Of a DNA stretch of 59,128 nt, positions 18,519-29,699 are shown one piece after another. This DNA comes from a bacterium (GTDB taxonomy: Bacteria > Armatimonadota > Zipacnadia > Zipacnadales > UBA11051). The notes beneath the pieces were generated by a model. That model did not search any database, was not told where the DNA came from, and worked only from the letters and a program-made list of their open reading frames with translations. The position numbers were made by a program, and so were the translations under genes. Location: positions 1 through 59,128 of the forward strand of contig JAJFUB010000161.1 in NCBI GenBank assembly GCA_021372615.1, in the 5' to 3' direction. How positions within the stretch are numbered: the first letter of the stretch is position 1; every line of letters begins with the position of its first letter.

Positions 18519-18681
18519 GGCATCACCTGGAGTTGGCGGATGGTCAGGCAGGAACAGTATAGCGCCTGGGCGGCGGCGGGGGCAATGAGTTCGGGGGAGG
18601 CCAGCAGGAACCCCCGGGGGAGATGGCGAAGTTACCACTTGAAGACCCATTCTGACCGTCACTCGGGAGGAGATGTGTCCT

Positions 18682-19341
18682 ATGCGTCGTGGCTTTACGC
18701 TCATCGAGTTGCTGGTCGTGATCGCGATCATCGCCATACTGGCAGCGATCCTGTTCCCTGTCTTTGCCAAGGCCCGCGAGAAGGCCCGGCAGACCAGTTG
18801 CCTGAGCAATGTGCGCCAGCAGATGACCGCCTGGGTGGCATATGCCCAGGACTACGACGAAGTGACCGTGCGCAACACCGTCAACTACTCAGGCATGATG
18901 GCGACGGGCTATCCGCCAGCCGGCACGCCCCCGCTGCAACTGTGGCACCACAATCTCCATCCGTATTGCAAGAACGTGCAGATGTGGAACTGTCCGAGCT
19001 ACGGCAACACCTACTACGGCCAGTACGGCAGCCCGGGCGGGTATGGGATCAACACCTACGTGTACGGCGTGGCCCTCGGGACGATCCAGCGGCCGGCGGA
19101 GATCGTCTGCATAGGCGAGTCGGCCGACGACAACGCCGGGAAGGCCTCGTACTACATCATGGACTGGGACACGCGGCTGGGCTCCTCTTCGGACAATGCC
19201 GCGCCGGTATCCGACCGCCACAACGACGGCGCCAACATCGGCTTCTGCGATGGCCACGCCAAGTGGCTGGGCTGGAAGAGCATCAGCTTCCGGGACGGCG
19301 CTGAACACGCCACGCCGCCTGGAACGAACGTCTGGTACTAA
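18682..19341 (+). CDS. Pseudopilin (DUF1559-like, prepilin-type N-terminus)
   Basis: The product has 219 residues from the ATG at 18682. GGGAGGAG ends 9 bases upstream; the in-frame ATG at 18673 abuts the same sequence and is less likely. The N-terminus [20 protein letters not shown] is a type IV prepilin/type II pseudopilin leader (cleavage after Gly4) with the +5 glutamate. The N-terminus then reads [13 protein letters not shown], as in Armatimonadota-type pseudopilins. The mature domain ends with [18 protein letters not shown]. The head has several aromatic residues and cysteines. No pilus motor gene lies near it in the window. Confidence 0.93.
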
Positions 19342-19558: not shown

Positions 19559-20173
19559 ATGCGTCGTGGTTTTACCCTCATTGAACTGCTGGTCGTGATT
19601 GCGATCATCGCCATCCTGGCGGCGATCCTGTTCCCTGTCTTCGCGAAAGCGCGCGAAAAGGCGCGCCAGAGCAGTTGTCTCTCCAATGTCAAGCAGATGG
19701 GTCTGGCCTTCCTGCAGTACTCCCAGGACTACGACGAGATGCTCCCGTGGTACGTGGACACCAACTACAACTTCGCTACGATGGCCTGGTACCAGATCAT
19801 GCAGCCGTATGTGAAGAACCAGCAACTCTGGACCTGCCCGTCGCAACGAGGCGGCATTGACTACGGCGTGGTGTACAACCACGTCAGTGGGGTGGGCACC
19901 AGCAAGCCTCTGGCGGAGATCCAGTTCCCGGCAGAGACCGGGATGCTGACCGAGACCGAGGGTCAGAACACTGCAGCCGGCCGGAGCGGTACGCTCTACC
20001 TGTGCTATTGCCCCTTCCACTGGGGGCAGGGCGCCATCAGTTGGGCGTACTACCGGGGCCTGGCCTGGCCGGGGCGTCACAATGATGGCAACAACTGGTG
20101 CTTCGTGGACGGCCATGGCAAGTGGCTGAAGTACCAGACGGCCATCACAACGCAACGGCTCTGGAACCACTAG
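19559..20173 (+). CDS. Pseudopilin (DUF1559-like), second copy
   Basis: The product has 204 residues. AAAGGAGGAATGTCCG precedes the ATG at 19559. The N-terminus [20 protein letters not shown] is the prepilin-type leader with the same [14 protein letters not shown] extension as the neighbour, so the pair arose by duplication. The head shares QDYDEM, PSQRGG and DGHGKWLKY at the end. It is transcribed in the same direction as the preceding one but has its own terminator, so it may have its own promoter. Confidence 0.93.
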
Positions 20174-22138: not shown

Positions 22139-23065
22139 CTACTGGGACTGCTTCAGTGCGTCCAGGATGGCCTTGGCGAGGTCGTTGCGAGGCAATACGA
22201 GCTTCTTGGCCTTGTTCACCTCGAATTCGACCACGAGGGGCTTGTCGCCCATGAACTCGTACCGAACGCAGGTATTGCCGTTCGGCAGCGTGTTGATGTA
22301 TGACGCTTGACCGCTGCCAACGTCCTTGCCGGGGTACTGCTGCATGAGCCGCAAGCGGAGGGCGAACAGGCCCATGCTAATGTCCCCGCCGCCGACCTTG
22401 TAGTTCTCCAGGTAGTCCACATCCTCCGACAGGGATGCCCCGCCGGTGCTGGACGGCGCGAAGGCCTTGGCGACCGCGTCCGTGTACTTGGTCGTCTCCT
22501 GGGCGACCTGCTCCCGTGTGGCCTCCACCATGGATACTCTCATGAGGTGCGAGACATACTCCTCTGTGCCGGCCTGCTCGGCTTCGCCCTGAAGGAACTG
22601 GCTGAAGAAGTCCGTCGAGGCCTTGAAGTCCTCGAAGTCCCCGACCGTCTTGTCTACCTTGACCGCGCGGTCAAGCCAGGGCATGGCGTCCCTGATCTTG
22701 CTCTGCTTGGGTCGCCCGTTGGGCTGGATGAGCAGGTGGGCTGCGTACAGCCGATAGGCGATGGCCGCCTGGCGCGGCGCCTGCCTCTCGTAGGAGACGT
22801 TGCTGGCTGCCTGCTCCGCCAGCCGTTTGAACTTGTCATCCAGTCCGCCCAGGACAGTGGTGTCGGAACAGCACTCCTGGGCCATCGCGGTGACTTCGCT
22901 CCGGAAGGAGGCCAACTCCTCGGTAGGCACGGGCTTGGTCATAAGCCGCGCGCAGCCGCTCCCCAGCAGCACAAGAGCTGCCGCAATCCAAGCCGCGCCG
23001 ATACTGGCTGCCATCCTGGTACGCGAGGTAGCGAGAGCATTGCGGTCGCGCGCGATGAGGCACAT
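22139..23065 (-). CDS. Lipoprotein homologous to the C-terminal domain of the TIR protein
   Basis: The product has 308 residues. AAGGAG precedes the ATG at 23065. Residues 20-37 are hydrophobic and end in LLGSGC, a plausible lipobox with Cys38, followed by alanine rather than the inner-membrane retention aspartate. Residues 56-74 (SEVTAMAQECCSDTTVLGG) and 95-113 (QAPRQAAIAYRLYAAHLLI) align with residues 251-269 and 290-308 of the upstream TIR protein (LEVLELANACMQDPAVVAG and EAPGETAALYRMYTASLLF). The final hundred residues have FMGDKPLVVEFEVNKAKKL. It is 18 bases after the TIR gene and certainly in its operon. I recognise no named family. It may be a partner or decoy of the TIR receptor in the envelope. 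Confidence 0.8.
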   Translation of the reverse strand: MCLIARDRNALATSRTRMAASIGAAWIAAALVLLGSGCARLMTKPVPTEELASFRSEVTAMAQECCSDTTVLGGLDDKFKRLAEQAASNVSYERQAPRQAAIAYRLYAAHLLIQPNGRPKQSKIRDAMPWLDRAVKVDKTVGDFEDFKASTDFFSQFLQGEAEQAGTEEYVSHLMRVSMVEATREQVAQETTKYTDAVAKAFAPSSTGGASLSEDVDYLENYKVGGGDISMGLFALRLRLMQQYPGKDVGSGQASYINTLPNGNTCVRYEFMGDKPLVVEFEVNKAKKLVLPRNDLAKAILDALKQSQ

Positions 23066-23083
23066 GGCAAGCTCCTTCTGTCC

Positions 23084-24301
23084 CTATGGATTCACGTCAA
23101 TCTGGTACACATTCTCCTTGGCCGCGCGATCAACAATCTGGCGCGTGTACTCATCTATCTTGTCGTCAGCGCTGCCCAACAGCGCGAGCTTCACTACGTG
23201 TCGGGTGGCTCCGTAGGCGTCGTATGAGGCCGAGGTGCCGTCCGCCAGCTTCGTGAAGTACTTCTCACACACGAGGAGGTCCTGGTTCGTGGTGACCGAC
23301 GGATTGATGGCGCGCAGCTTACGCAGTGCGGCCAGGCCCTGGCGTAGCTTCGCATCCGTGGGCCGCTCCTTCGGGGCGAAGAGCAACGAAGCGGTATACA
23401 TGCGGTAGAGCGCAGCGGTCTCGCCGGGCGCCTCCTCGCCATAGCGTGGGTTTGACTCGACCTTGGCTGCGAGTTGGGCCAATTGTGTTTGACGACCAGC
23501 CACGACTGCAGGATCCTGCATGCAGGCGTTCGCGAGCTCAAGCACCTCAAGCCTCATGTCATCCACTTCGCGTGCCGTGACGGGGGGACGGAACGCGGGC
23601 CGAACTGACAGCCCCAGACCCCCGTTGCGCTGCAGGATTGCCAGCCCCACCGCCAGGACCAGCACGACTGCGGCCAGCGGGACAGTGATGCCTAGCACCC
23701 GCCGCCGGCGTCGTCGCAGGGCGGCCCGGTCCACCGGGCCACGCGCCGTGCCACCTGCGGCCTCGGCACTGGCTGCCGGTGGAGTCGGCGACGCGACGCC
23801 GACCGGCGGAGGCACCGATGTGGAGGCCGGTGGCACATCAGAAGGGGCCTCGGTCAGCGGCGCGCCTTGCCCGGCAAGCGTGACGGCCCCCGCAGCAGTG
23901 TCTCCAGCCAGCACGCGTGCGACGGCCTGCGCCAGCTTCTCAATGTGTTGTTCCAGCGGAGGGGTGAGGGCATCAAGCCAGTGCGGTATGCCCAGGTAGT
24001 ACTGCATGTCGGGGGATGCGGGCGCGTCCTCGATGCGGAACGGGAGAATGGGCTTCTCAGCCTCCGCCGCACTCTGGACTTCGCGCAGTACATCACTCGA
24101 GGAGTTCGAGTGTGTGGAGAAGACCAGCACGAAGACGGAGCACGCCTGGATAGCTGTGACAATGGCCCCGGCCCACGTCTGTGAGGGCAGTATGTCGCGC
24201 GGCGCGATCCAACAGCGAATGCCGCGACCCTCCAGTCGGGCGCAGATGGCGTCCGCGGTCAGCTTGTCACGAAAGGAGTAGCTGATGAATACGTCGGACA
24301 T
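23084..24301 (-). CDS. TIR-domain membrane protein with extracytoplasmic domain
   Basis: The product has 405 residues from the ATG at 24301 (MSDVFISYSFRDKLTADAIC). Residues 1-135 form a TIR domain. It has FISYS, then GIRCWIAPRDILPSQTWAGA, then VFVLVFSTHSN and DVLREV, where Glu74 sits at the position of the catalytic glutamate of NAD-cleaving TIR domains. Residues 140-195 are a Pro/Ala/Ser linker ending in six arginines. Residues 202-223 (VLGITVPLAAVVLVLAVGLA) are one membrane span. Residues 245-405 form a domain homologous to the lipoprotein encoded next. By the positive-inside rule the TIR side is cytoplasmic and the C-terminus outside. It starts about 146 bases from the divergent gene at 24448. 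It is likely a transmembrane sensor with a TIR output. Whether it cleaves NAD is untested. Confidence 0.85.
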   Translation of the reverse strand: MSDVFISYSFRDKLTADAICARLEGRGIRCWIAPRDILPSQTWAGAIVTAIQACSVFVLVFSTHSNSSSDVLREVQSAAEAEKPILPFRIEDAPASPDMQYYLGIPHWLDALTPPLEQHIEKLAQAVARVLAGDTAAGAVTLAGQGAPLTEAPSDVPPASTSVPPPVGVASPTPPAASAEAAGGTARGPVDRAALRRRRRRVLGITVPLAAVVLVLAVGLAILQRNGGLGLSVRPAFRPPVTAREVDDMRLEVLELANACMQDPAVVAGRQTQLAQLAAKVESNPRYGEEAPGETAALYRMYTASLLFAPKERPTDAKLRQGLAALRKLRAINPSVTTNQDLLVCEKYFTKLADGTSASYDAYGATRHVVKLALLGSADDKIDEYTRQIVDRAAKENVYQIDVNP

Positions 24302-28172: not shown

Positions 28173-28772
28173 CTAGTCGGCGTCCCACATGTCGGTGACG
28201 TTGAGCTTCTCGGGCATGTACCACTTGGCGTGGCCATCCACGAACGCGAAGTTGTCTCCGTCATTGTGGCGGCGCGAATGCGAGGCGGGCGCCTGGTAGA
28301 TGTAGTACCGCGATGATGATGACGTGCCATTGTACCACGAGTCGCCCAGCATCACCGTCTCCGCCGGGCCCGGGCTGTTGTAGATGCCCAGGTTGCATCC
28401 CTCATAGATCGCGCCGGTGCGAACGGGCGACCACGTGTTACCAGGCTGGTAGCCGCAGCCCTGGTAGTTCCAGCCGTAGCCCGGGTAGGTGGTCCTGGCC
28501 GACGGGCAGTAGATCATCTGCGTGTTCTTGAGGTAGGGCTGGAGTATGACGACCCAGTAGTAGCCGCCGCAGTAGGCGAAGGGCAGCGTCTCGTCGTTGT
28601 CCTGGGCGTACATCAGCGCCCCCAGGGCCAGTTGCTTGACGTTGGACAGACAGTTCGTCTGTCGCGCCTTCTCACGGGCCTTGGCGAAGACGGGGAACAG
28701 AATCGCCGCCAGGATGGCGATGATCGCGATCACAACCAGCAACTCGATGAGTGTAAAGCCTCTCTTTGCCAT
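28173..28772 (-). CDS. Pseudopilin (DUF1559-like), third copy
   Basis: The product has 199 residues from the ATG at 28772, with AAAGGATGTGAGCAC upstream. The leader [20 protein letters not shown] is the prepilin peptidase substrate. The sequence continues as in the other copies ([42 protein letters not shown] at the end). The upstream 100 bases and the terminator are shared with the copy at 28994-29617, so the cassette is a tandem duplication. The tyrosine-rich C-terminal head differs. Confidence 0.94.
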
Positions 28773-28824
28773 GTGCTCACATCCTTTGCGCCGGTTCGGT
28801 GGCAGAAGTCGTGTTATGGCCACA

Positions 28825-28854
28825 CTATGCATACCCATTATTCGACGCGCACAT
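28825..28854 (-). CDS. Candidate leader peptide MCASNNGYA upstream of pseudopilin 3
   Basis: A nine-codon frame with ATG at 28854 and TAG at 28825-28827 has AAGGAGG 4 bases upstream (28859-28865). The same frame exists upstream of the other copy (MCASNNGYG), with one synonymous change and one amino acid change. It ends 52 bases before the pilin start. It may be an expressed leader or merely a relic of the duplication. Confidence 0.3.
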
Positions 28855-28993: not shown

Positions 28994-29617
28994 CTACTTG
29001 CGTGTCGCCTGGCACACCGGCTGCATGTAGATGGCGCTCGGCTTGTGCCACTTGACGTGTCCGTCGGCGTAGCCGTAGTTCCCGCCGTCATTGTGCAGCA
29101 CGGGGAGGTACGAGAACGAGTAGAGGACCAGGTACAGTCCGTTGCCGCTGTAGCCGTTGCTGGCCGGGTCGCCAATCACGATGGACTCGGCCGGGTACGT
29201 GACGTCGCTCAGACACACAGGAGCGCCACTCCAGGTGCCATAGTCGCCATAGTAGTAGCCGTAACCGTCCACGTCAGCGAGGTTGTAGCCGCGGAGGTTC
29301 CAGCCGTAGCCGCCCGAATAGCCCACGCCACTCATGGAGGGACACACAAAGACCTGTGTGTTCTTGACGTACGGAGCGATGACATTGTACCAGCGGACCG
29401 CAGGCGGGTTAGAGATATAGGCGATGCAGAACGTCTCGTCGTAGTCCTGGACGTACATGGCCACGGCGGTCATGATCTGCTTCTCGTTGGACAGGCAGCT
29501 ACTCTGTCGTGCTTTCTCACGGGCCTTGGCGAAGACGGGGAACAGGATCGCCGCCAGGATGGCGATGATCGCGATCACCACCAGCAACTCAATGAGCGTA
29601 AAGCCACGCTTTGCCAT
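28994..29617 (-). CDS. Pseudopilin (DUF1559-like), fourth copy
   Basis: The product has 207 residues from the ATG at 29617. The leader [20 protein letters not shown] and the following [20 protein letters not shown] match the other three. The head contains [14 protein letters not shown] and [20 protein letters not shown], very rich in tyrosine and glycine. It ends [16 protein letters not shown]. Sequence and spacing match the neighbour at 28173-28772, so they are paralogues from a recent duplication with changed heads. Confidence 0.94.
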
Positions 29618-29669
29618 GTGCTCACATCCTTTGTGCGGGTACGGTGGCAGAAGTGGTGTTGTAGTCACA

Positions 29670-29699
29670 CTATCCATACCCATTATTCGACGCACACAT
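29670..29699 (-). CDS. Candidate leader peptide MCASNNGYG upstream of pseudopilin 4
   Basis: Nine codons, ATG at 29699 and TAG at 29670-29672, with AAGGAGAAGG upstream. It matches the frame at 28825-28854 except the last residue. It may be functional or a shared relic. Confidence 0.3.

Follow-up and report, generated by a model that had tools for sequence, protein, structure and literature searches.

A TIR protein and an adjacent predicted lipoprotein share a helical domain in a Candidatus Zipacnadia genome

The locus and its host

The DNA analysed here (59,128 nucleotides, hereafter the window) makes up contig C161 of genome G000, a MAG of 6.4 Mb. Relatives of the same order were deposited under the name Candidatus Zipacnadia, a class of the Armatimonadota from marine sediment (PMC10290634), and the host is a deep-sea sediment bacterium. 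The minus strand of the window carries a gene for a TIR protein of 405 amino acids (P0001, 23084..24301), followed, after a gap of 18 bases (23066-23083), by a partner gene encoding a predicted lipoprotein of 308 amino acids (P0002, 22139..23065); the genes, their places and their spacing are those given in an earlier note on this DNA. A ribosome-binding site, AAGGAG (23072..23077, minus strand), lies inside the gap, upstream of the ATG of the partner gene. The genes flanking this two-gene unit are metabolic, encoding a class IV aminotransferase, a CBM9 protein, GDPD and a creatininase. No known defence gene was found among the locus neighbours with a Pfam match, and at the locus PADLOC matched nothing except the generic TIR part. 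Four prepilin-type proteins are also encoded in the window (18673-19341, 19559-20173, 28173-28838 and 28994-29695), dispersed amid metabolic genes; their N-termini are near-identical and they share the C-terminal motif HNDG...DGH.KW.

The TIR protein

Residues 4-112 of P0001 (23966..24292, minus strand) match the TIR_2 profile (PF13676) with a score of 74.2 bits against a curated cut-off of 28, while the score of the Thoeris TIR model on this protein was below its cut-off. A Pro/Ala-rich linker follows (residues 133-201; 23699..23905, minus strand), which ends in six arginines and is mostly missing from the ortholog P0004 described below. After the arginines comes the one strong hydrophobic span of the protein (residues 206-224; 23630..23686, minus strand; hydropathy 2.82), a predicted transmembrane segment. 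Because this span follows the arginines, the C-terminal part, made up of a helical domain that we call X (residues 237-405; 23087..23593, minus strand), is predicted to lie outside. The TIR domain with Glu74, the one membrane span and the extracytoplasmic domain that the earlier note had described were thus borne out, the last two by prediction. P0001 is probably a membrane-spanning protein for cell death or signalling.

The glutamate at the catalytic (NADase) position, which all enzymatic TIRs examined require (PMC10022894), is present in P0001 (Glu74) and in P0004 (Glu75), and is retained in most of the relatives shown. The WxxxE motif of TIR domains (PMC4203976) is incomplete: the position of its Trp, at -4, is occupied by Asp in P0001 and by Asn in P0004, and the Trp is replaced in the closest relatives of the window TIR as well. 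This motif is common in NADase TIRs, not strictly defining; nevertheless, since the glutamate is kept but the Trp is replaced, NADase activity should not be assumed.

The partner lipoprotein

P0002 begins with a signal sequence (22952..23065, minus strand) made up of a hydrophobic region and the lipobox AAALVLLGSGC, which ends in GSGC at Cys38 as expected of a bacterial lipoprotein and in agreement with the earlier assignment. The host genome encodes LspA (1.2e-34) and Omp85, which makes a lipid anchor and an outer membrane plausible. The mature protein comprises its own copy of X (residues 42-202; 22460..22942, minus strand) and a partner-specific C-terminal alpha/beta domain, Y (residues 203-308; 22142..22459, minus strand).

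The full-length AlphaFold2 model of the partner is moderate (pLDDT 72). X is all-helical in the partner model and TPR-like in a weak sense only; a TPR fold was rejected, as the best matches, which included TPR proteins at Z about 8, were under the level trusted for helical folds. Y is the best-conserved portion of the partner, includes the motif NGNTCVRYEF and was modelled with confidence (pLDDT 86, pTM 0.78). Comparison with solved structures gave no Foldseek match at E < 0.001 and no match at Z >= 5, and a viral structure library gave none below E 0.02; no solved fold is clearly matched by the predicted structure of Y. A match to this C-terminal domain in another genome of the phylum (G072; 0.006) was rejected, the protein being of a beta-propeller repeat type and the score at chance level over 291 genomes, and matches to DUF4054, L27 and SepX were discarded as weak or low-complexity.

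Homology and age of the shared domain

The X copies of the TIR protein and of its partner are related beyond chance and are true homologues. BLASTP aligned the two with 26% identity over 208 columns (3e-19), a profile comparison with HHalign gave a probability of 98.5% (2.8e-15) over 159 columns (residues 237-395 of the TIR protein against 42-200 of the partner), and the alignment scored 73.9 bits, whereas none of 200 shuffles exceeded 20.4. This profile comparison upholds the homology of the two outer domains proposed in the earlier note, whose motif positions were correct within about one residue. The same homology was found within the independent pair P0004/P0003 (1e-7). Neither X copy gave a match above cut-off with Pfam models, a collection that may not model every published EAD, the class of helical domains considered in the last section.

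X is 33% identical between the orthologous TIR proteins and 44% between the orthologous partners, and 25% and 21% identical within each genome. Since the copies are closer between genomes than within them, the duplication that gave rise to them predates the split of the two lineages, and the genes have been kept paired since. The same figures describe old and diverged copies, as would also be seen if the partner had arisen by tandem duplication of the outer domain, had drifted to an unrelated task and had stayed adjacent by inheritance, with no interaction now; the retention of gene order at 40-46% protein identity, and of both copies in a matching compartment within each genome, makes this reading very unlikely.

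Distribution of the pair

The pair is very rare. The partner was found in 3 of the 291 genomes of the phylum, and the X domain is confined to the same three. Only one other genome, the Candidatus Zipacnadia MAG G029, has both genes, and in the neighbourhood survey called for by the earlier note they were adjacent and in identical order, the TIR protein P0004 being 40% and the partner P0003 46% identical to those of the window. The gene order is therefore common to two families of one order at these identities. In the third genome (G027) the partner copy stands alone and is broken as assembled, interrupted by a stop and by what looks like a change of frame, and a start resembling a signal peptide sits in another frame; the nearest TIR of this genome is located elsewhere, carries TPRs instead of X and has no adjacent partner. 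The orphan copy adjoins a divergent gene (L013:9299-14872, on contig C89) for a protein of about 1857 amino acids with DUF4062, AAA_16/nSTAND, an NWD1-type winged helix and TPRs.

No relatives of the partner were found in plasmids or phages by tblastn, or in viral contigs by pattern scans, and a scan of genome contigs, which reaches just sequences with short conserved peptides in common, returned the two Zipacnadia loci only. In an order-wide scripted scan of TIR loci, which missed the TIR frame in a good part of them, an outer domain was shared with a neighbour only in the two orthologous pairs, and the same held among the loci of the TIR subfamily across the phylum. Matches at L048 and at L085/L091 were set aside because they lay outside any outer domain, the latter reflecting a tandem TIR.

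Compartment of the two X copies

No hydrophobic span is present in the G029 TIR protein, whose TIR domain is joined to X by a short linker rich in proline. Its partner lacks the lipoprotein signature: it starts with MSPSVAEF behind GGAGGAGG, and as only a few codons lie further upstream in the longest frame, there is no signal peptide. Both G029 proteins thus appear, from their sequences, to be cytosolic. In the window both X copies are predicted to lie beyond the membrane, in G029 in the cytosol; what seems to be conserved is their presence in one compartment, although the compartment itself changed, which favours direct contact between them. With two intact pairs, this shared compartment rests on one contrast and carries no statistic. 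As the G029 pair has neither span nor signal peptide, the envelope-sensor layout is a lineage variant, not the conserved core.

The TIR subfamily in the phylum

TIRs of the subfamily, mostly 44-60% identical, are sparse (12 of 291 genomes of the phylum at 1e-15). Some carry NHL propellers or TPRs on the far side of a membrane span, and others end in soluble TPRs, a kinase, a cyclase-STAND arrangement or, in the window's genome, an FtsK motor. The window TIR is therefore one member of a modular family with C-terminal domains swapped on either side of the membrane, and its special feature is the neighbour with the same outer domain.

The closest TIR in G000 to that of the window (contig C41 from 43195; L016:1483-3324, L014) is joined to an FtsK motor that is almost complete (FtsK_alpha, FtsK_SpoIIIE and the start of FtsK_gamma), with the TIR N-terminal of the motor and no membrane span. 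This genome has 13 TIR_2 matches, against none to five in relatives of the order, and encodes a further protein with TIR, Pro/Glu-rich linker, membrane span and TPR-like part (contig C146:38817-39182; L025, L041). A soluble TIR of the same subfamily (L080:464-1342, on G081:C286) is followed by two apparent copies of a helical repeat, each about 60 amino acids long, which no Pfam model matches and which may be an unlisted adaptor domain.

A candidate effector-partner module and its alternatives

The reading that we prefer, and to which we give an even chance, is a two-gene effector-partner module in which contact between the X copies lets the partner set the oligomeric state and output of the TIR protein. 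The output would be the TIR protein, with its cytoplasmic TIR domain, flexible linker, single membrane span and X outside; the lipoprotein would contribute its own X and the conserved domain Y. The two X copies would bind each other, so that the partner fixes the oligomeric state of the TIR protein. If Y, or the X of the TIR protein, sensed a change, this contact would alter, and the clustered TIR domains would then cleave NAD+ or act as a signalling scaffold, likely in defence or stress-induced cell arrest. Through the same contact the partner may be either a trigger or a restraint.

The homology of X in both pairs, the gene order, the predicted topology and the second pair, whose copies are both placed in the cytosol, are observations; X-X binding, sensing by Y, the NADase output and the role in defence are what we infer from them. 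Direct contact between the X copies predicts the matched compartment seen in both pairs, and the conservation of Y, the highest in the partner, is as expected of a binding site. The module is also favoured by the modular subfamily and by the published precedent of shared helical domains. Against it stand the single compartment contrast, the lack of defence neighbours, the missing Trp of WxxxE and the absence of a fold match for Y.

The partner could instead be a dedicated inhibitor, a decoy or antidote whose X caps that of the TIR protein and prevents clustering for as long as the partner is present, in the manner of a toxin-antitoxin system. The anatomy and the operon order, with the effector first, fit this equally; the orphan partner gene of G027 is broken, which might be the fate of an antidote without use, and no partner adjoins the nearest TIR of that genome, which has TPRs in place of X. 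Nothing, however, distinguishes a cap from a co-receptor, and the strong conservation of Y exceeds the needs of a cap, so that we regard an inhibitor as possible but rather unlikely.

We are similarly tentative about a bacterial Toll-like receptor pair, in which the outer domain of the TIR receptor and a lipoprotein co-receptor with the same fold would form a heteromer that relays an envelope event to the cytoplasmic TIR output; in the related lineage the whole module would have been redirected to the cytosol. A receptor acting as a heterodimer is plausible for the window genome from its predicted topology. The sensing of an envelope signal, as put forward in the earlier note, is likewise plausible there, but is unsupported as a general trait, given the spanless TIR and the signal-less partner of G029.

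We consider it clearly improbable that the TIR domain is a self-assembling scaffold with no action on NAD+, in a module for envelope or housekeeping signalling and not defence. The TIR subfamily lacks the Trp of WxxxE throughout, the neighbours are only metabolic and PADLOC recognises the generic TIR part alone, all in line with such a scaffold; yet both orthologs and most relatives keep the glutamate needed by all examined enzymatic TIRs (PMC10022894).

To our knowledge, sensing takes place inside the cell in nearly every bacterial TIR system characterised so far. If the TIR output of the module that we prefer is tied to an outer domain and a matching lipoprotein, envelope-sensed TIR signalling becomes testable, and the cytosolic G029 relative offers a natural control, an equal two-protein module in a different compartment.

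Comparison with known systems

The closest relatives in layout are proteins of the same subfamily and phylum (L082, L083 and L085), with TIR, linker, transmembrane span and NHL or TPR parts: their TIRs are 50-54% identical to that of the window, and they share the proline-rich linker, the one span and a repeat domain predicted outside, but their outer domain has no counterpart in any neighbour. Thoeris, CBASS TIR effectors and TIR-STING likewise have a TIR with the catalytic-position glutamate, whereas no ThsA, cyclase or STING gene was seen beside the window TIR, so the ThsA that marks Thoeris is lacking. Animal Toll-like receptors, by analogy only, have a cytoplasmic TIR, one span and an outer sensor domain; the window TIR differs in being N-terminal, the opposite orientation, in having no LRR and in its paralogous lipoprotein partner.

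The logic of the pair has been published for the EAD conflict systems, in which an effector and a neighbouring protein meet via a common small, non-catalytic, mostly helical domain (Kaur et al. 2020, PMC7159879; 2021, PMC8195603). As far as the accessible text of these two papers goes, a copy of the domain at the end of the effector, a second copy in the adjacent gene and TIR among the effectors are features of those systems, and the window pair likewise has the same non-catalytic domain in an effector and in the adjacent gene. It differs from what that text describes in that X is about 160 amino acids long and matches no Pfam model of such a domain, that the locus has no core MoxR-vWA, STAND, GTPase or peptidase, and that its X copies lie, by prediction, outside the cytoplasm. 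The tendency of adjacent copies to be closest to each other, reported there, is reversed here. The window pair would thus work like an EAD pair, and we do not file it as one because it has no core NTPase or peptidase and no recognised EAD profile, and its neighbouring copies are not the closest.

The earlier note knew of no named system of this layout. Its shared-domain logic is the EAD principle, already known for effectors and their neighbours, whereas domain X and the membrane layout are absent from the accessible text of PMC7159879 and PMC8195603; on that basis, what is new here is a shared helical domain unlisted among EADs and without an NTPase core. If our reading is true, the principle of recruitment through a shared domain is extended across a membrane.
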